NCBI GenBank assembly: GCA_013214705.1
Contig: JABSRZ010000015.1
Location: 1 to 41,086 of the forward strand
DNA from: Hyphomicrobiales bacterium
Lineage (GTDB): Bacteria; Pseudomonadota; Alphaproteobacteria; Rhizobiales; OSC116
Length of the DNA stretch: 41,086 nucleotides
Reading direction: 5' to 3'
Part shown: in pieces, positions 3,665 through 36,720 of the stretch
Position numbering within the stretch: position 1 is the stretch's first letter
Layout of the letters: the number at the start of each line of letters is the position of its first letter
The notes under the pieces: model-generated
Told to the model about the DNA's origin: nothing
Seen by the model: only the letters and a program-made list of their open reading frames with translations
The model's database searches: none
Translations under genes and position numbers: made by a program

Positions 3665-4861
3665 ATGACAGATGCAATTTTATTGCGTAATGGTAAAATA
3701 TTTGATGGCAAGAATATGTTGGATGGTGTGCATTCAGTATTGATTGAAAATGGCAAAATCAGCCAGATTGGCAATGATGATATATTTATTGGCTTTATGG
3801 GGCAGAGCCATGATGTAAGTGGTAAAACCATTTTACCCGGCTTGGTCGATTGCCATGTGCATTTATGTTATACCGCCTCGGGCGATCCGCGCGCCGATGG
3901 TGAAAAAATGGGACATTCGGAATTTACCTTAACTGCCTTAAAAAACGCCCAAGCTACATTATGCGGCGGCGTGACTGCTGTGCGCGATTGCGGTGGACGC
4001 GATTTCATGGAATTTGGTGTGCGAGATGCCATCAACCGTGGTGAATTTGATGGTCCGACAATATATGCATCGGGCAAAATTATCTGCATGACAGGTGGGC
4101 ACGGCCATGTGCACGCGCGGGTAGCCGATGGTGTTGAAGAAGTGCGCAAAGCCGTACGAGAGCAAGTTTTGGCCGGAGCTGATTTGATAAAAATCATGGC
4201 CACTGGCGGAGTTATGTCCCCCGGAGTTGATCCTCGGGATGCACACTATACCGCCGAGGAATTGGCGGTGGGCGTAAAAGAAGCGCATGGCTTACGCAAA
4301 CGCACAGCCAGTCATGCGCAGGGCACTGAAGGCATTTTAAACGCAGTACATGCTGGTATCGATAGCATTGAGCATGGCATTTTTTTAACGCAAGAATGCA
4401 TTGATAAAATGTTGGCTGCGGGCACATATGTAGTGCCTACATTTGCCGCATTACATAATATCTTAGCCAACGCTGATAACAATGACGGGCACAAAATTCC
4501 TAATTTTATGATTGAGAAATGCCAACAAGTGACTGAAGCCCATAAAGCATCAATGAAATTGTTTTATGAAGCTGGCGGCAAGATTGCCATGGGCACCGAT
4601 GCAGGCACGCCGCACAATAGGCATGGCAAGAATGCCGAAGAGCTGCGCTTCATGTGCGCCAATGGCATGAGCCAAGTAGACACTATGCGTATGTCAACTT
4701 TTAATGGTGCTGACTTAATGGGGTTGGAAAATCATGGGTTAATCGCGGTAAATTATGTAGCCGATATTTTAGTAGTAAATGGCGATCCGTCACACGATAT
4801 TGAGATGCTGGCAGATAAAAACAATCATACATTGGTGATAAAAGCTGGCAAAATCATCTGA
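3665..4861 (+). CDS. Amidohydrolase-superfamily metal-dependent hydrolase
   Basis: This 398-residue protein belongs to the imidazolonepropionase/prolidase-like branch of the amidohydrolase superfamily. Binuclear-centre ligands are visible: H64 and H66 (DCHVHL), the carboxylated lysine K176 (LIKIMATGG), H217 (ASHAQG), H237 (SIEHG) and D312 (GTDAG). Such enzymes cleave amide or peptide bonds, for example in N-acyl amino acids or Xaa-Pro dipeptides. AAGGA lies 8 nt before the ATG. It is 125 nt downstream of the aminotransferase on the same strand. The pair could release an amino compound and then transaminate it, which is inference. Its last codons abut an IS3 remnant. Confidence 0.87.
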   Translation: MTDAILLRNGKIFDGKNMLDGVHSVLIENGKISQIGNDDIFIGFMGQSHDVSGKTILPGLVDCHVHLCYTASGDPRADGEKMGHSEFTLTALKNAQATLCGGVTAVRDCGGRDFMEFGVRDAINRGEFDGPTIYASGKIICMTGGHGHVHARVADGVEEVRKAVREQVLAGADLIKIMATGGVMSPGVDPRDAHYTAEELAVGVKEAHGLRKRTASHAQGTEGILNAVHAGIDSIEHGIFLTQECIDKMLAAGTYVVPTFAALHNILANADNNDGHKIPNFMIEKCQQVTEAHKASMKLFYEAGGKIAMGTDAGTPHNRHGKNAEELRFMCANGMSQVDTMRMSTFNGADLMGLENHGLIAVNYVADILVVNGDPSHDIEMLADKNNHTLVIKAGKII

Positions 4862-4884
4862 TTTTTTCCAATGGGATTGAATGA

Positions 4885-5105
4885 AAAATACTTGAATCAT
4901 CATCGAATACAATTCGGACGTTTTCCTCGGCTGAATATTGCTTATGAATAGCGCGGCGAATGTCCTTAATTAGCCGGGTACCTTTTGTACGCTTGGACAT
5001 TAGTTTGCTTTCATCTTCACTCCTTCAGTGCGTTACGATGAACCAAAACACTATTTTGCGCAAACACACCATTCTGTTCCATAAAAGCTGACCACTTACG
5101 GTGTC
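4885..5105 (-). pseudogene. IS3-family element remnant (orfA head plus leader), copy 1
   Basis: On the minus strand, a frame from the ATG at 5000 reads MSKRTKGTRLIKDIRRAIHK followed by QYSAEENVRIVFD. It matches copy 2 near 33.0 kb residue for residue apart from scattered changes, then loses homology against the 3' end of the amidohydrolase gene. The untranslated leader also matches copies 2 and 3 (CTCCTTCA-GTTACGATGA, then a TCTGTTCCATA block). An upstream ATG at the position of the original start is out of frame, so the copy is dead. IS3-family OrfA is normally about 90-100 residues; only about 40 remain. Confidence 0.7.
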
Positions 5106-5260
5106 CGTCTTCTAATGTTTTGAGACAAATAGGTGTTTGAACTAAGCTGGAGTTTTGTTCAATAAGATCACAATATTGTCATAATCAAAGCCTTGAGTTT
5201 CCCGTTGGGGAACCTATATATTAATCTAGTTGATAACCAAACTCATGAGATTAGATCATT

Positions 5261-7730: not shown

Positions 7731-9689
7731 TCAAATGACGCGATCGCTGCCGCCATCAACCGGCACTTGTGCACCTGTTGTTTTTGAAAATGTGTCATCT
7801 GAAAACGCCAGTATCGCTTTTGCAACATCATTCGAACTGATCTCGACTTTGAGTAAATTGCGTAATTTATAATTTTTAACACTCATACCGTATCTTTTTG
7901 CCGATTTTTTTAATGCCGCACCATCCCATAACGGGGTGTCAAAAACCGCGTCGGGGTGGACTATGTTAACCCGAATTTTATCCTGACAAAGCTCTAGTGC
8001 AGCCACTCTGGCCAATTGCGTGAGCCCCGCTTTAGAAACAGAATAAGCACTTGCCCCTGCACCGGGCGCTAAGCAATTTCGAGAGGCAACAAACGCAATT
8101 GACGGGTCTACCCCAAGGCGCAAATATGGGATTGCTAAGCTTAATAATTTTCTGTGAGCGGTTAGATTGATTTCAAGAGTTTTATCCCAAGTATCATCTT
8201 GTAAATTCTCTATATACTCACCGGCTTTAAATATACCAGCATTTGCGATTAAAATGTCTATGCCGCCATAATTTTCAACCACATTTTCTATGGCTTGTTT
8301 TACCGCATCGCCATCGGTGAGATCGACAATTATCGAGTCAAAACCAACCCTATTCATGTGTTTTTTAACCTCGGGATTGATATCAAACCCAACCACAACT
8401 GCGCCATTTTTAGCCAATATTTTTGCTGTGGCTAAGCCTATGCCAGTTGCAGAGCCTGCGACTACGGCAATTTTACCCTGTAATGACAAAGATTTGCCTT
8501 GTTTTTTTAACTTTGCCTGTTCAAGTTCCCAATATTCCAAATCTCGTAAATCTTGTTCTGTCAGACCGGACCAGCCACCCATTTCATTTGCATATAGCAT
8601 GGCGTTAAGGGTCGAGTTTGCTACATCGGCGGATACTACAGCCCTTTTTAAAGAGTTGCCATAACTTCTGGCTTCGCCAGATGAGAAAATAGCCCAGTGA
8701 GGGTAGGGCGCCAACATTTCGAGGCTAGGATCTGCAGCTCTGTCAAAATAGGACTTATATTCTTTAGAGAAATTCAATAAATCTAACTCTGCATCGCCAG
8801 TGGTGGCCATTGCAGGAAATGGCTTATTGTGTAAAACATGCTCGGGCGTCAGTGTTCCATTGCGTAACATTTTGCCAATATTTATTACTAATTTTTTTGG
8901 CACGGCCTGAGCAGGACGAGAAACAAGCGGCTTACCTGCCAGTGTAGAAGCCATTTTACGATATTCGGCTACTTGTTTTGGATTCATGGTTGGGTTTTTT
9001 GTCAAACTCAACTCACCAATATTTTTAGTCAAATAGTCTTCTGCCACTTGCACAATATCAATCATTTTGTCGTAGCTTTGTTTGGCATCTTCAGCGAAGG
9101 TGAAAACACCATGATGTTCCAAAATAACAGCTTCGCAATTCTCAATTGCTCCATTATCAATTATGGTTTTGAATTGCAATGCCAGATCAAACCCCGGTTT
9201 GATATAAGTTAGAATAATGACTTTGTCGGTATATATTTCTTTCAAAATCTCACTACCTTTTGGCGAGTTTGATATGGTAAGCACCGCATCTGCATGAGTG
9301 TGATCTACATATTTGTAGGGTATTAGACCATGTACAACTGCCTCTATTGAAGCTTTTGCAGCTTCGGGGTTTATACGTGCACACAGTAAATCATTGACCA
9401 TATCTTGATCGGCTAATTTGGACAATTCGGCCAATTGAACCACTTTTTCCAAATGTAGACCGGTAAACCCTTCAGTTCCCATAGTTTTTAGGTCGAAGCC
9501 ACTTGCCTTTACCCAAATCAGGTTTTCTTCCTGTCCAAAGCGATTTGTTCTAGTGGATTTCAACGATGTATTTCCGCCTCCGTGCAGAACTAACTTTGAA
9601 TCTTTACCCAATAATCGAGAGCTATAGGCTCGTAATTCTAAGTCAGTAACTGCGTTTGATGCATCATTTTTATTCCAGCGATTTTTCAC
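7731..9689 (-). CDS. Bifunctional class II aldolase / short-chain dehydrogenase
   Basis: This 652-residue fusion has an N-terminal class II (Zn) aldolase/adducin domain (residues about 15-230, His ligands H130 and H132 in DHTHAD and the EHHG pair at 192-193). A linker follows, then a C-terminal SDR domain (about 402-652) with the NAD(P) motif GSATGIG at 412-418, NAG at 483-485 and catalytic S536, Y549 and K553. The architecture matches RhaD/RhaEW-type enzymes that cleave a ketose-1-phosphate and oxidise the aldehyde formed, though it is somewhat shorter than those of about 690 residues. Its GTG start overlaps the stop of the Tm-1-like gene (GTGA), so the two are translationally coupled. Last gene of the operon. 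Confidence 0.9.
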   Translation of the reverse strand: MKNRWNKNDASNAVTDLELRAYSSRLLGKDSKLVLHGGGNTSLKSTRTNRFGQEENLIWVKASGFDLKTMGTEGFTGLHLEKVVQLAELSKLADQDMVNDLLCARINPEAAKASIEAVVHGLIPYKYVDHTHADAVLTISNSPKGSEILKEIYTDKVIILTYIKPGFDLALQFKTIIDNGAIENCEAVILEHHGVFTFAEDAKQSYDKMIDIVQVAEDYLTKNIGELSLTKNPTMNPKQVAEYRKMASTLAGKPLVSRPAQAVPKKLVINIGKMLRNGTLTPEHVLHNKPFPAMATTGDAELDLLNFSKEYKSYFDRAADPSLEMLAPYPHWAIFSSGEARSYGNSLKRAVVSADVANSTLNAMLYANEMGGWSGLTEQDLRDLEYWELEQAKLKKQGKSLSLQGKIAVVAGSATGIGLATAKILAKNGAVVVGFDINPEVKKHMNRVGFDSIIVDLTDGDAVKQAIENVVENYGGIDILIANAGIFKAGEYIENLQDDTWDKTLEINLTAHRKLLSLAIPYLRLGVDPSIAFVASRNCLAPGAGASAYSVSKAGLTQLARVAALELCQDKIRVNIVHPDAVFDTPLWDGAALKKSAKRYGMSVKNYKLRNLLKVEISSNDVAKAILAFSDDTFSKTTGAQVPVDGGSDRVI

Positions 9690-10924
9690 AAATTGTCCTT
9701 TGCTTTTTGCTTAATTAAATTATCCATTTCGGCAACAGCTCGTGCTACAAATTCCTCATCTTCAGCATTATTATCCATTTCAATAAGCGGGATGTGAGCC
9801 GGAAGCATGGTTTTTACGGCTTCATTAAAAATGGCATCCTGTTTTAAATCTAGAAGGTCACCACCTTGCGCCGAATAGCTGCTGACACCCTGAAGAGGCA
9901 ACATAAAGACAGCGTCTTTTGTGGTTGAATTTAATCTCTCTGCAATTGATGACATCACTTGCAGCATTTCAGATCCGCTGGTGCGAGGCACCAGAATAAC
10001 CGGGTTGTGATAGCTATATAATCTGTTTTTATATTTTTCTGGCATTTCAGCTGGGTCACTTAGCAGTATGCCAATATGGTCGATGCCACCAGGAATGATA
10101 ACCTGCGGCAAACCCAGCTCACCCGCCACGGTTAGACGTGTGGGTTCTGCCGCCCTTATGCCGTCCAATACGGCATCACATATGTCACCAAGAGCGTAAT
10201 CTATGACGGCATGTATAATGCCGGCACGCATCATTTGTTCCATTGCTTCGCCGCCCGAACCCACTGCGTGAAATACCATAGATTGATAGCCAAGTTGCTT
10301 TAACAATACAATCATATGCATGGTGCCACGGGTCAGAACACCTAAATTTGTGATGGCCACAATAATTGCGTTGTCTCCTAGCTCAGATTTATGATCTGAA
10401 CAGGCCATTCCCCAGGCTGCGCCGGCGGCATTGGCAAGAATATTCCTAAGAAATGGGTTCAAACCCAAAATATCGCTAACGGAAAACATCATGGTGATGT
10501 CTTTTACGCCAACATAAGCGCTGACATCTCCAGACGCCATGGTAGAGACCATTATTTTTGGCAAACCATAAGGCAATTGTTGCATAATGCTTGTACAATT
10601 ACTGGTGCCTTGCGTGCCACCTAAACCAATGATTGCATCAGCTTTTTGGTTGGCAATTAATTCCTTCACTATTTTAGTTGCGCCAATTATCATCGTTTCA
10701 GATGCAATTTGCCGACTTGCCTGTTGCCTAAGGTCTGTTAAGTCAGCTCCAGCAATGCTTGCTACATTAGCCGCCGCATAATCGACCTCAATTTCTGGGT
10801 CTTGCATAACACCAATATCAATCAGTGTGGCGGTTGCCCCAAAAGAGATAATTTGCCGACGTAAAAACTCACATTCTTCGCCTTTTGTATCGGCAGTCGC
10901 GAGTATAATTATATGTTTACTCAT
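9686..10924 (-). CDS. Tm-1-like ATP-binding (UPF0261) protein
   Basis: This 412-residue member of the UPF0261 family is homologous to the N-terminal ATP-binding region of the tomato Tm-1 virus-resistance protein. Family hallmarks are ATADTKGEE near residues 9-17, the glycine-rich GLGGTQGTSNC near 99-109, and PKIMVSTMASGDVSAYVG near 122-139. The enzymatic role in bacteria is not established. The ATG overlaps the stop of the PEP-hydrolase-like gene by 8 nt (ATGAGTAA), and its own stop overlaps the aldolase start. It is therefore expressed with sugar-cleaving enzymes. I infer a catalytic step in the same pathway. It is the only obvious non-transporter ATP user in the operon. Confidence 0.88.
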   Translation of the reverse strand: MSKHIIILATADTKGEECEFLRRQIISFGATATLIDIGVMQDPEIEVDYAAANVASIAGADLTDLRQQASRQIASETMIIGATKIVKELIANQKADAIIGLGGTQGTSNCTSIMQQLPYGLPKIMVSTMASGDVSAYVGVKDITMMFSVSDILGLNPFLRNILANAAGAAWGMACSDHKSELGDNAIIVAITNLGVLTRGTMHMIVLLKQLGYQSMVFHAVGSGGEAMEQMMRAGIIHAVIDYALGDICDAVLDGIRAAEPTRLTVAGELGLPQVIIPGGIDHIGILLSDPAEMPEKYKNRLYSYHNPVILVPRTSGSEMLQVMSSIAERLNSTTKDAVFMLPLQGVSSYSAQGGDLLDLKQDAIFNEAVKTMLPAHIPLIEMDNNAEDEEFVARAVAEMDNLIKQKAKDNL

Positions 10925-11792
10925 TATGCTGCTCCAATCCGGTTGACCGAAGTCGAGCGAACTTTAGCGCTTCAGATCTTACAGCACGTTCAATTGGCAA
11001 TCGCTCGGTTGAAGAACCTGTCCAAAAACCATGGCCAGACGTGTTATCAAGCATATATTGGGTGTCGTCTGGATTCTCCATGGCTGCACCATGAGCAACC
11101 AAAATTACATTTGGGTGGATTTTTCGTAGTTCTTGATAGATTTTTTCTGTGGTTATTGCCATCTCTTCAATGGTTACGCCGTTATTATAACCGCTAATAC
11201 CGCCTTGAGTGGTGCCAGCATGAAAGCAAAAAATGTCTGGTTTTGCTTGTTCAACAATGTCTAGCGCATCGTCTCGGGTAAATGCCAACCCAATGGTAAC
11301 CATCCCCATTTCCTTTGCTAAAACAAGCATATCAATCTCATTTTGTAAGGTAATGCCGGCACTATTTAGAACCCGGTAAATTTCGCTGTTTTTATCTACA
11401 TAACTAATCGAAGGGCCGATATTTGATATCGAGTTCACCCCCATTCGTAGGCAGTCATCCAGAACCATTCGCATGTCTTTAAGTGGGTCATTTGCATTTA
11501 AACATGCGCATACAAATGCCTTGCCTTGCAGCGCCGGTAAAATGTCTTCACGCGTATAATTCATGGTTTGAGCATTGGAGTCCAAAATTGGCCACATCAT
11601 TGCCATTGTGCCCATTCCGTTGGCTCGCAGCCTCGCACCCGAGAATGTGTTGATGCAGTCTGCGCCGGCCTCTTCTAGTAATTTAGCCACCAATCCACTG
11701 CCTGCACTAGAAATCATAATTGGAATTTTAGCGGCTATTTTGTCTTGAAGTTTTTTGATAATTTCAGTAGATGATATTCTTTTCGTGATCAT
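10917..11792 (-). CDS. PEP hydrolase-like TIM-barrel protein
   Basis: This 291-residue protein belongs to the phosphoenolpyruvate-hydrolase/TIM-barrel family that forms the C-terminal half of the plant Tm-1 protein. Visible family features are the N-terminal GSGLVAKLLEEAGADCI, NIGPSISYVD near the middle, FCFHAGTTQGGISG, and a C-terminal AHGAAMENPDDTQYMLDN followed by GHGFWTGSSTERLP. Related barrels act on C-C or P-C bonds of keto acids, but the reaction of this subgroup is unproven. AGGAAA precedes the ATG by 8 nt. It lies between an alpha/beta hydrolase and the Tm-1-like gene in one transcription direction. Confidence 0.86.
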   Translation of the reverse strand: MITKRISSTEIIKKLQDKIAAKIPIMISSAGSGLVAKLLEEAGADCINTFSGARLRANGMGTMAMMWPILDSNAQTMNYTREDILPALQGKAFVCACLNANDPLKDMRMVLDDCLRMGVNSISNIGPSISYVDKNSEIYRVLNSAGITLQNEIDMLVLAKEMGMVTIGLAFTRDDALDIVEQAKPDIFCFHAGTTQGGISGYNNGVTIEEMAITTEKIYQELRKIHPNVILVAHGAAMENPDDTQYMLDNTSGHGFWTGSSTERLPIERAVRSEALKFARLRSTGLEQHNE

Positions 11793-11821: not shown

Positions 11822-12643
11822 TTAAAAATTATTCGATCCTAAAAAATTATTTAATTTATTGGTTAATTCTCTCTGATGTTTTTTTGGTTCCAAATATCGA
11901 CTTGGCAAAATATGAAATTGGCTGTTTCTAATATTCATTGAAATTTTCTTGGCTATCGAAACGGGATGGATCGGGTCGTTTTCGTTAGCTGTGATGAAAG
12001 TTGGCATGTTTAAGTGGTTTAAATTTTCAAGATCTTCAAAAGCACGACCTTCGATCATTTGGGATAAAACAGAGTGTGTTTGATTAGAAAACCGGTCATT
12101 TATTGAAGCTTCAATTGAGGCGGCACAATTTGGATTTGTTTTTAGTAAGTCTTGGAATTGGAGATTTCTTGAGAGTTCAAATTTGGCCTGTTCAAGGGTT
12201 TTATTTTGCAACCAGTTTCCAATATCAGAAATTATTTGCAAATTATCTGGCCTTTGTTTATCTAACCAAGCAGGCCGACAAATTATTAAACCGGCCACTC
12301 TGTCTGATAGGCTTTCGGCCATATTTATGGCTATGCCAGAACCCATTGATATGCCACCCAAAATAACTTTTTCAATTTGCAATGAGTCTAAAAAAGCGAT
12401 CATTATTTCTTTGAACTTTGCAAAACAATAAGCGTTTTGGAAATTATCTGAATGGCCATGTCCTGGTAAATCTGGTGACCATATCCGTGCATTTGTGGCT
12501 GAGAAAGTTGATAATATCTGACGGTTATTTGCGCCTAGTCCATGCATTAGCAATGTCGGATAGCCTATGCCTTGTACTTTATAGGAAATTGAGATATTGC
12601 TTTCATTTGAAATCTTTTCGGATGTTATTTGAATTTTACTCAT
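11822..12643 (-). CDS. Alpha/beta-hydrolase fold protein
   Basis: This protein of about 273 residues has the alpha/beta-hydrolase core: oxyanion-hole HGLG near 34-37, the SPDLPGHGHSD loop near 56-66, and the nucleophile elbow GGISMGSG with Ser near 99. The acid is probably in ANENDPIHP. The expected C-terminal catalytic His is not in a standard context, the best candidate being in KKHQREL. It has no signal peptide. The ATG at 12643 is preferred over one five codons upstream because AGGGA lies about 7 nt before it. In a sugar-acid operon a lactonase or esterase step would fit, which is inference. Confidence 0.82.
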   Translation of the reverse strand: MSKIQITSEKISNESNISISYKVQGIGYPTLLMHGLGANNRQILSTFSATNARIWSPDLPGHGHSDNFQNAYCFAKFKEIMIAFLDSLQIEKVILGGISMGSGIAINMAESLSDRVAGLIICRPAWLDKQRPDNLQIISDIGNWLQNKTLEQAKFELSRNLQFQDLLKTNPNCAASIEASINDRFSNQTHSVLSQMIEGRAFEDLENLNHLNMPTFITANENDPIHPVSIAKKISMNIRNSQFHILPSRYLEPKKHQRELTNKLNNFLGSNNF

Positions 12644-12731
12644 ATAAATCCCTGTCAATGAAAACCCAATTGTGAAAATTGGAAAATCAATCCCTTAGAT
12701 CCGTTAAATTGTGTTTGTAGATAATGATTGA

Positions 12732-12766: not shown

Positions 12767-13807
12767 TTAGTTTGAGCTGCCAGAGGCTTCCCAAACTTCC
12801 ATAGATTTGATTTCAGGCTGCGCAAACAAATCCACTACCAACTTGCCACTCGCTTTCATAGCCAGATAATCATCAATAACCCAAGGCACCGCGCCATCAA
12901 GGTTGTCAACTGTCAACAATGGTTGGATGTTATAAACATGACGCGGATAGTCTATGCCAGCAATGTGAGCTTGAACCATTTGGAAATTAAGATCAGCTTC
13001 TAGAGTTGGTGGGTTGGCGACTGTAGCCTCCATAATGCCATCACGCATCCAGCTCCAGCCAATTTCTTTACCGTTACCAGAGAATAATGCATAATTACCT
13101 AGTTCACCAGCTTCTTCCAAAGCTTGTATCGCGCCAGCCATCATTTCTTCATTCATCGCATAAATAACTTCAAATTCTTTGCTTGAGGCCAAGAAATCCT
13201 GTGTAACGGCTAAGCCGTCTTTGCGGTTCCAGCCAGCTGAATTGGCAAGCACAACTTCGTTGCCGCCATTTGCGTTTGCAATGCCAGTATCAAAACCTTT
13301 GCGAATCATTTCGGCAATACCTTGGCCATAAACGCCTTCAAGTAGGGCTACATTTTTACCAGGATGGTTTTTACCGACATATTCGCCGACAGTTTTACCC
13401 ATATCAATCCAATCACCACTTACGATGCCGGTTGGAATGTCATAACCAGCAGGTGAGGGTAATGCGGCTACGAAGAAGATAGGTATACCAGCTTCTTTAG
13501 CGCGCAATGCCGCTTGTGTTCCAGATTCAGCATTGGCAGATAGCAACACGATGATGTCAACGCCGCGGGCGATGAAATCTTCTACATTTGCCAATTCTTT
13601 TGACGGGCTATATTCTGAATTTGCAACCGTAACGGTGTGACCTGCATCTTCTGCCAACTTTTGGAAAAGTTCAGCTTCTGTCGCATAGTAAATATCAGGG
13701 CCAGCGAGCACATAACCAATTTCTTCGGCAAGAGTGATAGCTGTTGAACCCATTAAGCCAACTAGACCAAGACCAGCGCCAATAAATAATTTTTGATAAA
13801 TTTTCAT
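12767..13807 (-). CDS. Sugar ABC transporter periplasmic substrate-binding protein (CUT2/RbsB type)
   Basis: This 346-residue type I periplasmic binding protein has a Sec signal peptide (KK-free basic start, hydrophobic core, cleavage near ITLAEE around residue 28). The mature part shows the ribose/galactose-binding-protein pattern: DIVLLSANAESGTQAALRA style first-domain hinge, IPIFFVAA, and an IYAMNEEMMAGAIQALEEAG second-domain segment. Such proteins deliver pentoses, hexoses, deoxysugars or sugar acids to a CUT2 permease. AAGGGA lies 6 nt before the ATG. It follows the permease by about 150 nt, an ATPase-permease-binding-protein order that is less usual than having the binding protein first. 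The ligand is unknown. Confidence 0.92.
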   Translation of the reverse strand: MKIYQKLFIGAGLGLVGLMGSTAITLAEEIGYVLAGPDIYYATEAELFQKLAEDAGHTVTVANSEYSPSKELANVEDFIARGVDIIVLLSANAESGTQAALRAKEAGIPIFFVAALPSPAGYDIPTGIVSGDWIDMGKTVGEYVGKNHPGKNVALLEGVYGQGIAEMIRKGFDTGIANANGGNEVVLANSAGWNRKDGLAVTQDFLASSKEFEVIYAMNEEMMAGAIQALEEAGELGNYALFSGNGKEIGWSWMRDGIMEATVANPPTLEADLNFQMVQAHIAGIDYPRHVYNIQPLLTVDNLDGAVPWVIDDYLAMKASGKLVVDLFAQPEIKSMEVWEASGSSN

Positions 13808-13961: not shown

Positions 13962-14966
13962 TTATTTATCTTTGTTTAGACCGCCAATTATGACTGCGCC
14001 GATGACCACTGCGCCCAACATGATGTATTGCCAGAATGTTGAAACGCCGATGATGTTCATTGAATTTGAAATGATGCCTAGAAAAACAACCCCCAAAAAG
14101 CTGCCGAAAATAGAACCCCGGCCACCGGCAAGAGCTGCTCCGCCAACCACAGCGGCGGCAATGGTTTCTAATTCTAAGCCAGAGGCCATATTAGGGCTGC
14201 CGACACCAATGCGGGACATCAAAATGAGTGCAGCAATGCCTGCTAATAAACCGTGCAATGCATAGACTTTAATCTTGAATTTTGACACATTTATGCCAGC
14301 AAGATAGGCAGCTTCGTTGTTTTCACCGACGGCAAATAGCTGCTTACCAAAAACGGTGTTACTTAATATGAATGCAAATAAAATCATCAGGCCAATAAAA
14401 ATAAACACCGGAGTTGGAATTTCAAAAAATCTCGACCTACCTAGGAATTCGAATTTTCTATCTAATGGAATTTCTGCACCACGCGTTAACAATAAAGCAA
14501 TGCCGCGATATATGGCCATCATGCCCAATGTCACAATAAACGGCTCAAGTTTGAGACGAGCAACTACCAACCCGGTAACCATTTGGGAGGATATACAAAT
14601 GAATAAACCGCTAAACGCCACGATAATCTCGGGCACTCCGGCTTTTAATAAAGCCGCCATAATACAGGCAGTTAACCCGACCAAAAAGCCTACAGAAAGA
14701 TCGATTTGACCGGCTATAATCATTAACGTCATGCCAATGGTAATTATTCCGGCAACTGACACCTGCAGCATTACATTTCTTATATTATAGGCAGATAAAA
14801 ATGCCGGCTCTATCAATGCTATTATGGCAATGTAAATCAACAAGCCTATCAATAAAGGCGTGTTGCGGTTACGCAAAAATTGCCGAAATTGCTGTGCACC
14901 AATAACACCTGTTTGGTCATTTTTACTGGGTTGTTTCTCATTCAAGTCATTTGATTTATTTAGCAT
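13962..14966 (-). CDS. Sugar ABC transporter permease (CUT2/RbsC type)
   Basis: This 334-residue BPD_transp_2 family permease has about eight to ten membrane helices. Hallmarks include GMTLMIIAGQIDLSVGFLVG near residues 75-95 and the C-terminal AAAVVGGAALAGGRGSIFGS coupling region. It should homodimerise in the inner membrane and pair with the RbsA-like ATPase encoded 10 nt upstream and the binding protein downstream. AAGGGA precedes the ATG. Length and composition are normal for ribose/rhamnose-type permeases. Substrate is set by the binding protein and cannot be read here. Confidence 0.93.
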   Translation of the reverse strand: MLNKSNDLNEKQPSKNDQTGVIGAQQFRQFLRNRNTPLLIGLLIYIAIIALIEPAFLSAYNIRNVMLQVSVAGIITIGMTLMIIAGQIDLSVGFLVGLTACIMAALLKAGVPEIIVAFSGLFICISSQMVTGLVVARLKLEPFIVTLGMMAIYRGIALLLTRGAEIPLDRKFEFLGRSRFFEIPTPVFIFIGLMILFAFILSNTVFGKQLFAVGENNEAAYLAGINVSKFKIKVYALHGLLAGIAALILMSRIGVGSPNMASGLELETIAAAVVGGAALAGGRGSIFGSFLGVVFLGIISNSMNIIGVSTFWQYIMLGAVVIGAVIIGGLNKDK

Positions 14967-14975
14967 TTTCGTCCC

Positions 14976-16457
14976 TTACAATGCTGATTCTAGAATATTG
15001 TGTTCGGTGATTTCTTCATCAACTAGTTCGTTGACGATGGTGCCAGCTTTCATGACATATACGCGGTCACACAAACCCATGAGTTCAGTTATTTCCGAAG
15101 ACACAATTAGAATTGATTTGTCAGATTCTATGAGTTTTTGTAGTTCTAAATAGACATCTTCTTTGGCGCCGACATCTATGCCGCGTGTGGGTTCATCAAA
15201 TAAAAATATGCTCGGATTGGTGGCCATCCATTTGGCCAAGATGATTTTTTGTTGGTTGCCGCCACTTAACCCACTTACAGGTTGTTCAATGCTGCTTATT
15301 TTGATGGATAATTGATCCACATAATGGTTGGATAGGTTTTTTTGAACTTGGGATTTGACCAATAAATTCTTCTGTTTGGTTAATAAAGGAACATAAATAT
15401 TGTCGTTGCAAGATTGCCCTAAAAATAAACCATCTATTTTTCTGTCCTCGGTAATTAAACAAAGACCATTTTTCATGCCCGTCTCCGGTGTATTAATGGA
15501 AACAGATTTGCCATAGAGGCTTAGCTGGCCACTTGCCAATGGATATTTGCCAAAAATCGAATTTATAAGTTCTGATCTGCCAGCGCCTACAAGTCCGGCA
15601 ATTCCTACAATTTCACCTTTTTTCAAATAAAGGTTTGCCTCATTGAAGCCATAACCGGATGCATTCTTTAGCTCCAATACAACGTGATCTTTGACACAAG
15701 GTGTATGGTGGTAAACCTGTTCTACATTACGCCCGACCATATCTTGAATTAACTGTTTGTTTGAAATTTCACCTACGGCATTGCTCGATATGTTTTGGCC
15801 ATCTCTGATGACCGTCACCCGGTCTGAGATTGCATAAACTTCATCTAAATGATGTGAAATAAAAATGATGCCTGCACCAGATTTTCTTAACCGATGCATA
15901 ACGTCAAAAAGCAGATCCACTTCGTGGTTACCAAAAGAAGACGAGGGTTCATCCATGACTAAAACGCGAGCCTTCCGCCCGACGGCACGCGCGATTTCGA
16001 CAATTTTCATTTTGGCGCCGCCTAGTGTAGACACGGTGTCCATTACATCTATGTCTGCGCCTAGGGAGGTGATTATATTCTTCGCTTCTGCTATCATTGC
16101 CGATTTATCTAAACGACCATATTTTGAAGTTAATTCGCGTCCGACGAATATATTTTCATAAACGCTGAGGTGTAAAAATAGTGTATTTTCTTGGTAGATT
16201 GTGGCAATGCCAGCTTTTAACATTTCATTTGGCGTCAAATCATTTACTAGATTACCGTCAATAAATATTTTTCCTGAATCCGGCGTGTGAGCGCCTGATA
16301 ACACTTTGATTAGAGTCGATTTTCCGGCACCGTTTTCGCCACAAATCGTATGAACTTCTCCTGAATACAGATCGAAGCTAACACCATCTAAAGCTTTGGC
16401 GCCGCCAAAATGTTTTACGATATTCTGTAATTCAAGAATTTTGTTGTTAGACGTCAA
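14976..16457 (-). CDS. Sugar ABC transporter ATP-binding protein with two ABC domains (RbsA type)
   Basis: This 493-residue tandem ATPase is typical of CUT2 importers. Domain 1 (about 5-245) has a canonical Walker A (GENGAGKST) and Walker B (VLVMDEPSSS), but a degenerate signature (TLGGAKMKIVEIAR). Domain 2 (about 255-493) has a degenerate Walker A (GLVGAGRSE), a good signature (LSGGNQQK) and Walker B (IFLFDEPTRG). This complementary degeneracy is normal for RbsA proteins. The frame begins with TTG and has no strong ribosome site, so the first gene of the operon may be translated weakly. It is divergent from the AraC gene, which probably regulates it. Confidence 0.92.
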   Translation of the reverse strand: MTSNNKILELQNIVKHFGGAKALDGVSFDLYSGEVHTICGENGAGKSTLIKVLSGAHTPDSGKIFIDGNLVNDLTPNEMLKAGIATIYQENTLFLHLSVYENIFVGRELTSKYGRLDKSAMIAEAKNIITSLGADIDVMDTVSTLGGAKMKIVEIARAVGRKARVLVMDEPSSSFGNHEVDLLFDVMHRLRKSGAGIIFISHHLDEVYAISDRVTVIRDGQNISSNAVGEISNKQLIQDMVGRNVEQVYHHTPCVKDHVVLELKNASGYGFNEANLYLKKGEIVGIAGLVGAGRSELINSIFGKYPLASGQLSLYGKSVSINTPETGMKNGLCLITEDRKIDGLFLGQSCNDNIYVPLLTKQKNLLVKSQVQKNLSNHYVDQLSIKISSIEQPVSGLSGGNQQKIILAKWMATNPSIFLFDEPTRGIDVGAKEDVYLELQKLIESDKSILIVSSEITELMGLCDRVYVMKAGTIVNELVDEEITEHNILESAL

Positions 16458-16784
16458 TTTTTTTCATTCTACTATCAATAGATGCGTTTAAAACTCTCTA
16501 TAATTCTGTAGAATCCCTGTTCGTAATCACTCAATAAATTAGATTTAATTATCTACTTTCTTCATTATCGAGTGCATTCCCAATTTATAATGTTCGCGAC
16601 ATTTGCGCCGCGCATCATCCCATTTCAAAGATGGAAAATTTTAATTTTGCGGTTCTTAATTGACAGCTATAAATTTACAAAAATTCCAATTCTTGATTTG
16701 TTTAGTATCTCAAATTCAAATAGAAAAATCTTGCACAACACAACAATGGTAGATAGTGTAAGTTTTAAAGAGGGATATTTTTGT
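16458..16784. promoter_or_regulatory. Divergent control region between sugar operon and AraC gene
   Basis: About 330 bp of AT-rich DNA separates the operon from its likely activator. A TATAAT at 16499-16504 (plus strand) overlaps a dyad, ATTCT-GT-AGAAT, at 16503-16514. That dyad is a candidate regulator site, not a typical paired AraC direct repeat. I could not identify a convincing minus-strand promoter. Confidence 0.35.
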
Positions 16785-17807
16785 ATGAAAAAATCAAAAC
16801 CAGTAATATTTTATGACAGTGGCGAAGAATATATTGCAGATTCTTGCCTACCGTTCAAACAAGCTATGGCAGATAAAACATTCGAAGGTAGTGCTTGGTC
16901 GCGAGGGCAATATCCAGGCATAAGTTTAAAAAAGTCCCAATTACCGGGCATTAGGTCGGTGGGGTATTGGAACATAACACAAAAACAGGATTGGTATCTT
17001 GTCCCTCATTATAATGAAGGTATAGAATTAACCATTGTTCTTGCCGGTAGTTTGGCTTTTGAATCTAACGGTGTATCGGAAGTTTTAACCCGTGGTCGGG
17101 TGGCTCTTTCTAGCCCATGGCAAAAACATGCGCTGGGTAAACCAGCAATATCTGCAAGTAAAATTGCATTTTTTATTTTGGACGTTAATGTTAGGCGACC
17201 CAATAGTGAGTGGCTCTGGCCAGACTGGGTTCTTTTAAACCAACAAGAAAAAAAACAACTGCAAAATTTAATTATTCGCAACAGTTTTCCGGTTTTTACG
17301 GCCAATGCAGATTTTTTATATTCGTTCGAACGAGTTTACGAATTGCTGGAAGAAAATCCGGATAAGAATAGTGGCAAAACGTCCATGTATTTGAATTTAA
17401 TTTTATCAAGTTTAATTGAAAATTTGAAAGGAAAACCACAAACTGATGCCACACTTAATGACACATATCTAACTGTGAAGTTGTTTTTGGCAGGTTTAAA
17501 AGATCACGTTGAACATAACTGGAATCTTGAAGAGATGGCGGCAAAATGTGGTATTTCCAGATCCCATCTTTCAGTCATTTGTAACGATTTAAGCAACAAA
17601 TCGCCAATGATGTTTCTCAACGAGTTGAGACTTAAACTAGCGGCTCAAGATCTGGAACATAAACTAGACCATTCTATAACGGATATATGTTTTGATTGTG
17701 GGTTTGGCTCGAGCCAATATTTCAGCAGAAGATTTTCTGAACATTTTGGTATGTCACCACGAGCTTATAGAAAACAATTTATTCTTAGCGCTCAAGATAA
17801 AGTGTAA
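16785..17807 (+). CDS. AraC-family transcriptional regulator
   Basis: This 340-residue protein has an N-terminal cupin-like ligand domain (about 70-130, with VLAGSLAFESNGVSEVLTRG) and a C-terminal double helix-turn-helix (about 240-335: WNLEEMAAKCGISRSHLSVI, then SITDICFDCGFGSSQYFSRR and FSEHFGMSPRAYRK). The ATG at 16785 is chosen over the first in-frame start 71 codons upstream, because AAAGAGGGA lies about 9 nt before it and the family homology begins here. Divergent from the sugar operon, it is the probable sugar-responsive activator. A strong hairpin follows the stop. Confidence 0.9.
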   Translation: MKKSKPVIFYDSGEEYIADSCLPFKQAMADKTFEGSAWSRGQYPGISLKKSQLPGIRSVGYWNITQKQDWYLVPHYNEGIELTIVLAGSLAFESNGVSEVLTRGRVALSSPWQKHALGKPAISASKIAFFILDVNVRRPNSEWLWPDWVLLNQQEKKQLQNLIIRNSFPVFTANADFLYSFERVYELLEENPDKNSGKTSMYLNLILSSLIENLKGKPQTDATLNDTYLTVKLFLAGLKDHVEHNWNLEEMAAKCGISRSHLSVICNDLSNKSPMMFLNELRLKLAAQDLEHKLDHSITDICFDCGFGSSQYFSRRFSEHFGMSPRAYRKQFILSAQDKV

Positions 17808-17864: not shown

Positions 17865-18704
17865 TTATTCGGCGCCATGGTGTTTTAAATATTCATAGCT
17901 AGCTAAAAGTGCTCCAGTTCCGGCAACTTCTAATGTTGTATATTCAACACTGTCTCCAAGCACGGCAATTACACCTTCAATATCGACAACGCCATCACCT
18001 ATGGCAATTGACCCCATGCCACAGCCGTAAGATTTGCCGCGTTCGCTTTCCATATCAGCGGGCATATCTTTCCAATGTATATGGCCAATTTGGTCTTTAA
18101 ATGCTTTTGCCATTTCAACCGGGTCGGTTCCGCCAAGCCAACAATTGCCAGTATCTAAATTCACTCCAACCGAAGAAACGTTGCCTAATTTATCTAGAAC
18201 GCCACCAAGTGCTGCAATGTCATCAGATATAATCCCGTGTGGTTCAATCAGTATGCGAACACCAAGTGCTTCAGCTAACCTTGCAGGTTCATATAGTTTT
18301 TCGGCAAAAGCGAAAATACGCTCTTTTTCAGATAGGTTTTTTGACCAGTCTGTTTGCATATGCCCTTCTGTGGTGATTACATCACGAACGCCAAGGGCAT
18401 TAGCCATGTAAATACCTTTCATGATTTCAGTAGTACCATAGCGGAACGGGGCCGGCGGATCTAGCAGATTGGCATGGCAACATACACTGGTGATTTCTAG
18501 CCCATACTTGCTATAAGCAGCTTTAATGTCAGCCGGATTAGAATCCAAACTTACTGAAGCTGTCATATCAATCGTGCCAAGCAATGAAGCGCCTGTGTGA
18601 TTATCTGTGACGTCTGCGTATTTAAATCCCATATCTTGTATTTGAGCCAATTGGTGCTCTAATGGTGTGAATGGGTCTATTAGTGAAAAACATCCAACTT
18701 TCAT
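17865..18704 (-). CDS. Sugar phosphate isomerase/epimerase (xylose isomerase-like TIM barrel)
   Basis: This 279-residue AP-endonuclease-2/xylose-isomerase-like barrel has metal ligands visible as Glu in ILIEPHG, Asp in GVNLDTGN, His in GHIHWKD and Glu in TLEVAG. Relatives interconvert ketoses, aldoses or epimers, or dehydrate inosose. The ATG at 18704 is preceded by AGGAGG at ideal spacing, and an upstream extension of 19 codons has no such site. It is convergent with the AraC gene. The AraC gene and this enzyme flank the operon, so it probably supplies the isomerisation step of the same pathway, though it is a separate transcript. Confidence 0.88.
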   Translation of the reverse strand: MKVGCFSLIDPFTPLEHQLAQIQDMGFKYADVTDNHTGASLLGTIDMTASVSLDSNPADIKAAYSKYGLEITSVCCHANLLDPPAPFRYGTTEIMKGIYMANALGVRDVITTEGHMQTDWSKNLSEKERIFAFAEKLYEPARLAEALGVRILIEPHGIISDDIAALGGVLDKLGNVSSVGVNLDTGNCWLGGTDPVEMAKAFKDQIGHIHWKDMPADMESERGKSYGCGMGSIAIGDGVVDIEGVIAVLGDSVEYTTLEVAGTGALLASYEYLKHHGAE

Positions 18705-19088
18705 TTCTTCCTCCTGTTTTTTTAAAGCAGTATGGCAAAGAAATTTAGTGTGATCTTGCATTTCATTATTTTGGTAAATATTATAAGTTTTATTCGATCA
18801 AAACTCACGCAGTTTAACCATGAATAGTGTTTATTTACAAGGCTTTAAAGAAATTATGTTTGATAGAAGAACACTATTTTATTGAGTTGGAGTGTGCCTA
18901 TTCAGCATTAATATAATTCTGAAACGTTACTTAATGTCGGCTCCTGCACCAGATGTTAAATCGAAAAAATGGGGCGAACGCGCCAATCCGGTCCATTTCG
19001 TCGCAACTTCTTACCCCAGGGTTGTTCTTCAGGCGGGTTGGCTCATGGGTCGAGAATCTACTGGCAAAGGGTATTGACATTTTATTTA
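18705..19088. other. Gap with one weak open frame and no recognised gene
   Basis: The only open frame of note runs on the plus strand from about 18934 to 19077 (starting MSAPAPDVKSKKWGERAN). It is richer in GC than its flanks but matches no family I know. Its stop lies just before the MarR operators. It could be a small gene or a fragment of an older one. Confidence 0.3.
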
Positions 19089-36069: not shown

Positions 36070-36720
36070 TTAAGCAGCGATTTGCTCAAAAGCCAAGGGG
36101 CTTTTCCAACCTAATGCAGAATGTCGCCGCCTAGGATTATAGAAGCCATTGATATATTCAAATATCGCTATTTCTACCTGACGTCTAGTTTGCCATGTGC
36201 GTCTCCATATTAGCTCAGCTTTGATGGTCTTGAAGAATGTTTCCATAGCCGCATGATCAGAGCCTGCCCCTGTCTTTGGGTATAACAATTACCCTTTCCT
36301 GACATAGATATTTTAAAACCCAATTCACGCAATCGTTTTTGATAATCATGTGAGCAATATTGGCTACCACGATCACTGTGATAAATGCAGCCTTTCGGCG
36401 GTCTACGCAAAGCAATCGCCATATCTAACGCACGTATCGCTAAATCTTTCTTCATCCGATTACTAACTGACCAACCTATCACTCTACGTGAATGCAAATC
36501 CAACACAGCAGCAAGATATAACCAGCCTTCACGTGTCCAAATATAGCTAATATCAACCACCCATTTCTGATTGGGTTTATTGGCTTCAAAACCTTGTTCC
36601 AAAAGATTGGCGGCAATGGTGAACTTGTGGTTGCTATCCGTCGTAACCTTATATTTGCGGGTTCTAATCACAGATATATTGTTCTGACGCATCAAACCGT
36701 AACACGACCAAACTGCCTCG
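36070..36720 (-). pseudogene. IS3-family orfB (DDE transposase) pseudogene
   Basis: The frame covers the rve/DDE integrase core: NQKWVVDISYIWTREGWLYL (first Asp), IYHSDRGSQYCSHDY (second Asp), KISMSGKGNCY, then AAMETFFKTIKAELIWRRTW (Glu) and GFYNPRRRHSALGW. It is almost complete at the 3' end but lacks the N-terminal 60-80 residues. Between GNCY and the expected DNAAMETFF lies a 23-bp insertion (36259-36281) that shifts frame and separates the second Asp from the Glu. The copy is therefore inactive. The orfA remnant at 1.1 kb may come from the same type of element. Confidence 0.85.

Follow-up and report, generated by a model that had tools for sequence, protein, structure and literature searches.

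Overlapping genes for the two halves of plant Tm-1 in a candidate catabolic operon of a Hyphomicrobiales bacterium

Results

The gene pair and its distribution

Tm-1 of plants joins an N-terminal UPF0261 half to a C-terminal TIM barrel. We analysed a stretch of 41,086 nt (the window; contig JABSRZ010000015.1 of assembly GCA_013214705.1, Hyphomicrobiales) that carries these halves as two genes on the minus strand: a PF09370 "PEP (phosphoenolpyruvate) hydrolase-like" TIM barrel of 291 aa (10917–11792) and a UPF0261/Tm-1-like protein of 412 aa (9686–10924), for which we propose a function as small-molecule kinase. The barrel scored 194.2 bits against PF09370 (cut-off 33.8), and the UPF0261 protein scored 194 bits against PF06792 and 187.9 bits against PF23189 (both cut-offs 27) and exceeded the cut-off of NCBIfam NF002674. 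The genes share 8 nt (ATGAGTAA, 10917–10924), and a GGAG lies 7 nt 5′ of the UPF0261 ATG, within the barrel gene (counted by hand on the letters). The order, barrel and then UPF0261, is the opposite of that in plant Tm-1. A preliminary description of this DNA had recognized two overlapping genes in this order that equal the Tm-1 halves, and the Pfam assignments confirm it.

In a sample of 299 genomes of the window's phylum (phylum sample; fragments of one gene were merged, 46 UPF0261 rows to 42 places and 31 PF09370 rows to 30 places), UPF0261 was present in 28 genomes, one of them under the family cut-off, and PF09370 in 20. All 20 genomes with PF09370 also encode UPF0261, and 8 of the 28 UPF0261 genomes have no barrel gene. 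A same-strand UPF0261 gene lies within 1.8 kb of 23 of the 30 barrel places; UPF0261 comes first in 22 of these pairs, and the window is the only one with the barrel first. The other seven barrel places are three regulator-type barrels, a short fragment, one gene with stops, and two below the cut-off. No barrel adjoins 19 of the 42 UPF0261 places. The presence of UPF0261 in every barrel genome, together with the adjacency at 23 of 30 places, shows that pairing goes far beyond chance. When loci (numbered with L) were retrieved by a UPF0261 protein alone, a barrel gene adjoined UPF0261 in 28 of 29, L031 being cut by a contig end. In two genomes outside the phylum sample, G329 (L047) and G430 (L072), the barrel stands alone and UPF0261 is on other contigs. 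An independent distribution of the genes, which the preliminary description had named as evidence against a partnership, is thus seen only in part: barrels do not occur without UPF0261 in the phylum sample, while UPF0261 does occur without barrels and the barrels of G329 and G430 lie apart.

In Planctomycetota, the phylum of L012, UPF0261 was found in 40 of 199 genomes; 26 of 30 examined loci were paired within the stretch, 21 with UPF0261 and 5 with the barrel first. Eight named plasmids (archaea, Thermomicrobiota, Actinomycetota, rhizobia) all carry both genes, which overlap in four of them (4 or 11 nt), and the planctomycete L015 has the same 8 nt overlap as the window. Gene overlap is common and not peculiar to the window.

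Several variants of the arrangement were observed. L093 (8125–11402) carries a UPF0261-barrel-UPF0261 triad, a possible intermediate of the two gene orders. A cupin gene lies between barrel and UPF0261 in Haloterrigena (L079, 7722–10215), and cupin genes are located 3′ of the pair in rhizobia (L076, L077, L078). In L063 (8606–10894) UPF0261 is placed behind an ATPase domain of an ABC (ATP-binding cassette) transporter (LivF-like), a fusion confirmed by Pfam. Similar long open reading frames (ORFs) occur in L054, L055, L057, L061, and L069, without Pfam confirmation, and a barrel gene is next in four of the six L063-type ORFs. The ABC-linked UPF0261 and barrel of L055 (1856–10665) adjoin a flotillin/Band 7 protein and a molybdenum hydroxylase subunit.

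Against PF09370 the window barrel reached 194 bits, compared to 421–445 bits for the 20 best PF09370 proteins of the phylum sample. Loci of the window type (n = 27; L003–L030 without L029) were found in Verrucomicrobiota, Bacteroidota, Rhodothermota, Planctomycetota, one Latescibacterota metagenome-assembled genome, and two unclassified ones. Their barrels are 64–77% identical to the window barrel (26 aligned; L008 72%), and the barrel gene is always upstream of UPF0261, with gaps of −8 to about 400 nt. In the barrel tree the window groups with 26 window-type rows (27 rows in all, support 100/100), and the stem of this clade is very long. The same 27 rows stand together in the UPF0261 tree (100/100); L030 was excluded from both trees. 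A quick tree with planctomycetes, from which 14 rows including the most divergent had been removed beforehand to save time, returned a 21-row clade of exclusively barrel-first pairs, with a support of 100 in the Shimodaira–Hasegawa-like approximate likelihood ratio test (SH-aLRT). Outside that clade, barrel-first order was seen in L116, L071, and the haloarchaea L075 and L079. Judged by these alignments and trees, the window pair represents a divergent branch of the family in which the gene order is reversed.

The TIM barrel

The window barrel matched the structure 2p10 in sequence with E 2.2e-36. For the fold we used a model of the barrel-UPF0261 read-through of L028, whose barrel, the one modelled, is 72% identical to that of the window. 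This barrel aligned to 2p10 with Z 28.8 and a root mean square deviation (rmsd) of 2.4 over 242 residues, and the predicted local distance difference test score (pLDDT) of the model was below 50 in 53–69, 195–203, and 261–267. The next fold matches were TrpA and IGPS (indole-3-glycerol phosphate synthase), both with Z about 19, whose substrates are phosphates. In such barrels the segment after strand 8 binds phosphate. Mll9387 (PDB 2P10, "putative phosphonopyruvate hydrolase") has family and fold in common with the window-type barrels, but is only 26% identical to the L028 barrel; the Mesorhizobium barrel in L076, probably the Mll9387 gene, follows its UPF0261 gene.

D102, E152, H191, T195, H234, S260, S261, E263, R264, and E268 were invariant in all 60 non-regulator barrels (27 window-type and 33 others), 58 of which lie beside UPF0261 (31 of the 33 others, a set that includes the barrels of L047 and L072). 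The Ser-Ser motif (S260, S261) is located after strand 8. Window-type barrels differ from the other set at positions such as 46, 50–53, 97, 236, and 258–259; the proximity of these differences to invariant residues suggests that window-type barrels may use another substrate.

Five barrels are of the regulator type (L065, 10153–11916; L064, 11767–13944; L076, 8508–10337; L077, 12649–14478; L057, from 5818). Sigma-54 domains were identified by Pfam in L065 and by annotation in L076 and L077, while L064 and L057 were assigned to this type from their scores alone. All five keep E152, S260, R264, and E268; positions 191 and 195 are occupied by N, and position 234 by E or G. Since the histidines are lost only in the regulator barrels, the others look catalytic. 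From this pattern of residues, non-regulator barrels look like enzymes and regulator barrels like degenerate sensors.

The UPF0261 protein

The model of the window UPF0261 protein (pLDDT 88.8; predicted template modelling score, pTM, 0.73) has the fold of the Tm-1 N-domain, as it aligned to Tm-1 (3wrw_A) with Z 40.3 and rmsd 4.4 over 387 residues. The second match was 9MPY with Z 33.1, and a UDP-sugar 2-epimerase ranked third with Z 12.7. 9MPY is Saro_1862 of Novosphingobium aromaticivorans with bound acetovanillone, an aromatic ketone, and is the nearest characterised UPF0261 structure; fold and most core residues are common to it and the window protein, at about 30% identity. Catabolism of acetovanillone in this bacterium is described as starting with MarK, "a single-component kinase" (PMC13101465, citing Hall et al. 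2025). MarK is very probably Saro_1862 and hence a UPF0261 protein.

UPF0261 has 48 columns that are conserved across the window-type rows and the others. By hand count, 39 of these are retained in 9MPY; the Tm-1 fragment covers 39 of them and retains 38. T10, D12, T13, and K14 are near-invariant in UPF0261, including six rows without an adjoining barrel (one has E at 12). A search for MarK-like proteins in 385 genomes (up to four candidates scored per genome, E 1e-60) returned relatives with 34–40% identity in only five genomes, and five of the six loci have a barrel, L083 being the exception. By analogy to MarK, we infer that the window UPF0261 protein would be an ATP-dependent small-molecule kinase.

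Genomic context

The pair belongs to a minus-strand run of seven genes, from 16457 down to 7731. It starts with genes for an ABC ATPase of the AraG/XylG type (14976–16457), an ABC permease of the AraH/RbsC type (13962–14966; both assigned by Pfam, with NCBIfam scores below cut-offs), and a sugar-type periplasmic binding protein (12767–13807; Pfam Peripla_BP_4), followed by an alpha/beta hydrolase (11822–12658; Pfam), the barrel, and UPF0261. The last gene (7731–9689) encodes a RhaD-ADH-like fusion of a class II aldolase and a short-chain dehydrogenase (SDR), assigned by Pfam and NCBIfam; its best NCBIfam model, NF006196, gave 722 bits, under the cut-off of 831. It overlaps the UPF0261 gene by 4 nt (9686–9689), which the preliminary description had overlooked. 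An AraC-type regulator (16572–17807; Pfam HTH_18) is divergently encoded on the plus strand, and a xylose-isomerase-like TIM barrel protein on the minus strand (17865–18761; PF01261) possibly belongs to the same pathway. The operon with an aldolase that had been described at the outset is borne out as a catabolic one, with a sugar-type ABC transporter in addition, and so is the functional link between the halves. Pathways with rhamnulose-1-phosphate aldolase/SDR (RhaD-ADH) likewise have an aldolase-SDR fusion and a sugar-type ABC transporter encoded in a single operon; the window differs in that its fusion scores below the family cut-offs, the barrel-UPF0261 pair is added, and searches of the contig for FGGY and PfkB relatives found none.

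The contig ends where the window ends, and an ORF at 36210–36695 was judged by eye to be an integrase-core-like transposase. A mis-binned contig was rejected: the tetranucleotide correlation of the window halves to nine own-contig stretches was 0.92, compared to 0.09–0.52 for seven foreign loci. Own stretches correlated among each other with 0.89–0.94, and the operon alone gave 0.89.

The window-type pair was not found in any of five congeners, some of which have incomplete genomes, and no barrel in 60 relatives was more than 33% identical to that of the window. A search of 385 genomes with the aldolase-SDR as query (three candidates scored per genome) led to two clusters of the window's class, L148 and L149, which have the same gene order with 35% identity for the hydrolase, 74% for the barrel, 57–58% for UPF0261, and 58% for the aldolase-SDR, and lack the window's ABC transporter. 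The hydrolase-barrel-UPF0261-aldolase-SDR core is patchily inherited and not unique to the window. In Opitutaceae the pair is similarly close to that of the window (barrel 76–77%, UPF0261 56–57%); a direct transfer from Opitutaceae was set aside, since the core of L148 and L149 in the window's own class is about as close.

Neighbours were counted up to 5 kb from each of the 27 window-type pairs, excluding the window; they were named from one representative per cluster, and AraC, SDR, and hydrolase by reading or by similarity to window genes. We found class II aldolases in 12 loci, SDRs of the window type in 7, Rpe-like genes in 6, LsrF-like genes in 4, AraC regulators in 7, and alpha/beta hydrolases in 3, and an aldolase or SDR of any kind in 19. 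The LsrF-type gene of L006 scored above the family cut-off. In this locus an unrelated 365-aa ORF (4054–5151), nuclease-like by eye, lies between UPF0261 and the Rpe-like gene. In a phmmer search the aldolase domain of the window did not hit the cluster of class II aldolases, so the two are at best distant kin. Other pairs have Liv-type transporters, molybdenum hydroxylases, or dikinase-like genes as neighbours, and sugar transporters are common. An ancestral role of Tm-1-type proteins in carbohydrate metabolism, as initially suggested, is only partly supported: it is in agreement with the frequent sugar transporters, but less so with the Liv-type, molybdenum hydroxylase, and dikinase-like neighbours or the aromatic ketone in 9MPY. 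On the plasmid of Thermomicrobium (L074, 8992–19206) the UPF0261-barrel pair is accompanied by a PPDK_N protein and a PEP-utilizer protein, which resemble two-component phenol dikinases, and by a xanthine-dehydrogenase-type subunit.

The substrate of LsrF-type enzymes is a phosphorylated dione, and a kinase is therefore expected. By tblastn with FGGY (three queries) and PfkB (one query) no relative was detected in the window or in the stretches read of L003–L030; sensitivity was limited, as the Shinella FGGY query missed the FGGY gene of L067. These queries with real kinases were used instead of PROSITE-like patterns, which had a positive control for PfkB and none for FGGY. An aldolase-SDR (57%, 56%) occurs together with an FGGY kinase on two Shinella plasmids, one of which, L090, additionally encodes LsrF; the ORFs read on these plasmids included no relative of UPF0261 or of the barrel. 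This distribution would be compatible with UPF0261 filling the kinase slot. UPF0261 as a straight replacement of the FGGY kinase is weakened by L148 and L149, which carry both and also encode a HAD-IIA phosphatase and a further class II aldolase. Relatives of FGGY, HAD-IIA, and class II aldolase are also present in L067, which has UPF0261 without a barrel, and a HAD-IIA phosphatase is encoded near UPF0261 in L065 (by Pfam) and L064 (by clustering) as well. For the same aromatic ketones, the Hpe pathway is reported to place its chemistry between a kinase and a NagD-like phosphatase (PMC9618137), and by analogy a temporary phosphorylation is another possible logic.

Relation to plant Tm-1

In the quick tree the Tm-1 fragment (PDB 3WRY) falls on a long branch within an 11-row clade (SH-aLRT 97), with up to 59% identity. 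The remaining 10 members of this clade are, without exception, UPF0261 genes of planctomycetes (including L098–L106) that immediately precede a barrel gene. The Tm-1 fragment thus groups with planctomycete genes in UPF0261-barrel order and not with the window clade. Plant Tm-1 and the window have the same two domains and share the UPF0261 core (38 of 39 columns), but in Tm-1 these form one chain that starts with UPF0261, whereas the window has two genes with the barrel first. There is no reason to expect that the window proteins would bind and inhibit a tobamovirus replicase.

Discussion

The occurrence of the Tm-1 halves as separate proteins in bacteria is at its core not new. Plants fuse UPF0261 and the barrel, and prokaryotes and fungi generally encode them apart; the barrel and UPF0261 co-evolve, with UPF0261 present in 491 of 504 bacterial genomes that have the barrel (Yang et al. 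2016, PMC5028733). The split UPF0261/TBST genes of that study are the same pair as in the window, which adds a divergent barrel subfamily and the reversed order. A word search of its text for gene order terms gave nothing on bacterial adjacency or operons, and our search of the open-access literature, mostly of listings and passages, returned no paper on adjacency of the bacterial pair or on the reaction of the barrel. Four of our findings had no counterpart in the literature that we saw: the branch with reversed order, the general adjacency of the pair in operons, the loss of the histidines from regulator barrels, and the planctomycete UPF0261-barrel neighbours of Tm-1. We take COG5441 and COG5564 to be the UPF0261 and barrel families. 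These two groups were a top pair in phylogenetic profiling of fungi (PMC8963296).

The reading that we prefer, and to which we give about an even chance, is that the pair represents two successive enzymes, a kinase and then the barrel, rather than two halves of one active site. A sugar, a sugar derivative, or a polyol would probably be the substrate that the ABC transporter imports, and the UPF0261 protein, a member of the MarK/Tm-1 family, would phosphorylate this small molecule with ATP. The phosphate-binding barrel, with its two histidines as catalytic residues, would then convert the phosphorylated molecule in a retro-aldol, isomerase, or hydrolase reaction, and the aldolase-SDR would cleave and oxidise the result. 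The substrate is probably carbohydrate-derived here and aromatic elsewhere.

Several observations weigh against this scheme. The kinase assignment leans on equating MarK with Saro_1862 from organism, ligand, and dates, and 9MPY is on a long branch outside both pair clades of the UPF0261 tree. The most window-like clusters, L148 and L149, have an FGGY-family kinase directly downstream and another one nearby, and other contigs of the window's own genome (L128, L129, L137) encode FGGY relatives. L092 has an aldolase-SDR and LsrF with UPF0261 and barrel absent, and no FGGY was found there either, while the Thermomicrobium pair is adjoined by dikinase-like genes. What the barrel catalyses is guessed from its fold and motif, and the position that precedes Ser-Ser is G in the window type and A in the others.

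The preliminary description had instead suggested that the two chains form one enzyme, a view that our data do not favour. An obligate heteromeric enzyme, in which the UPF0261 subunit uses ATP to drive a reaction finished in the barrel, would fit the overlapping genes, the presence of UPF0261 in all barrel genomes of the phylum sample, and the fusion in plants (PMC5028733). Barrel and UPF0261 distance matrices are also correlated (r 0.945, 58 pairs, 0 of 2000 permutations; shared ancestry was not removed), which fits shared operon ancestry or contact. However, modelling of the two chains together in the L028 read-through gave no confident mutual placement (pTM 0.53 compared to 0.73 for the window UPF0261 alone), which is weak evidence as paired rows made up only 5 of the 50. 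UPF0261 has no adjoining barrel at 19 of 42 places and is fused to an ABC ATPase with no barrel beside it in L063, a structure of a barrel without UPF0261 exists (2p10), and MarK is described as single-component (PMC13101465). The L063 fusion and the triad of L093 show that the partnership is flexible, and we regard a single obligate enzyme as unlikely.

Even less probable in our view is that UPF0261 is an epimerase/isomerase-like or sugar-nucleotide enzyme for which ATP is only regulatory: after Tm-1 and 9MPY its best fold matches are indeed non-hydrolysing UDP-GlcNAc 2-epimerases and relatives (Z about 12, about 150 residues), but these mainly cover the N-terminal Rossmann-like half, and the 9MPY/MarK lead points to a kinase. 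We give the same low probability to the view that the two proteins simply share an operon and a pathway, without a more direct functional link. The wide variation of neighbours between loci would agree with this, yet the adjacency of the pair is mostly kept while other neighbours change. A regulatory pair in which the barrel serves to sense a signal ("TIM-barrel signal transduction") appears very improbable. Some PF09370 barrels are fused to sigma-54 activators (L065), but H191, T195, and H234, replaced in all five regulator barrels, are kept by the 60 others.

Extending the scheme of two successive enzymes to plants, we tentatively consider it possible, though rather doubtful, that plant Tm-1 actively catalyses two steps, as a UPF0261 kinase joined to a phosphate-barrel enzyme, that it arose when an adjacent planctomycete-type UPF0261-barrel pair was transferred once and fused, and that the window type, a branch with the order reversed, was recruited to carbohydrate breakdown. 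A single transfer is suggested by the planctomycete clade of Tm-1, the plant order in 21 of 26 planctomycete pairs, and the core kept in Tm-1. Two independent transfers followed by fusion were proposed as the origin of the plant gene, and nearly all land plant genomes sequenced have a Tm-1-like gene (PMC5028733). The planctomycete grouping of the UPF0261 half of Tm-1 in our tree questions this two-transfer origin, and the operon arrangement would provide a simpler origin for the plant fusion. If the non-regulator barrels are indeed enzymes, the label "TIM-barrel signal transduction" would be misleading for them. We know of no accepted answer to the question of which role Tm-1 has in the cell outside virus resistance. 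If its UPF0261 half is a kinase and the barrel acts on the product, plant Tm-1 would become assayable.

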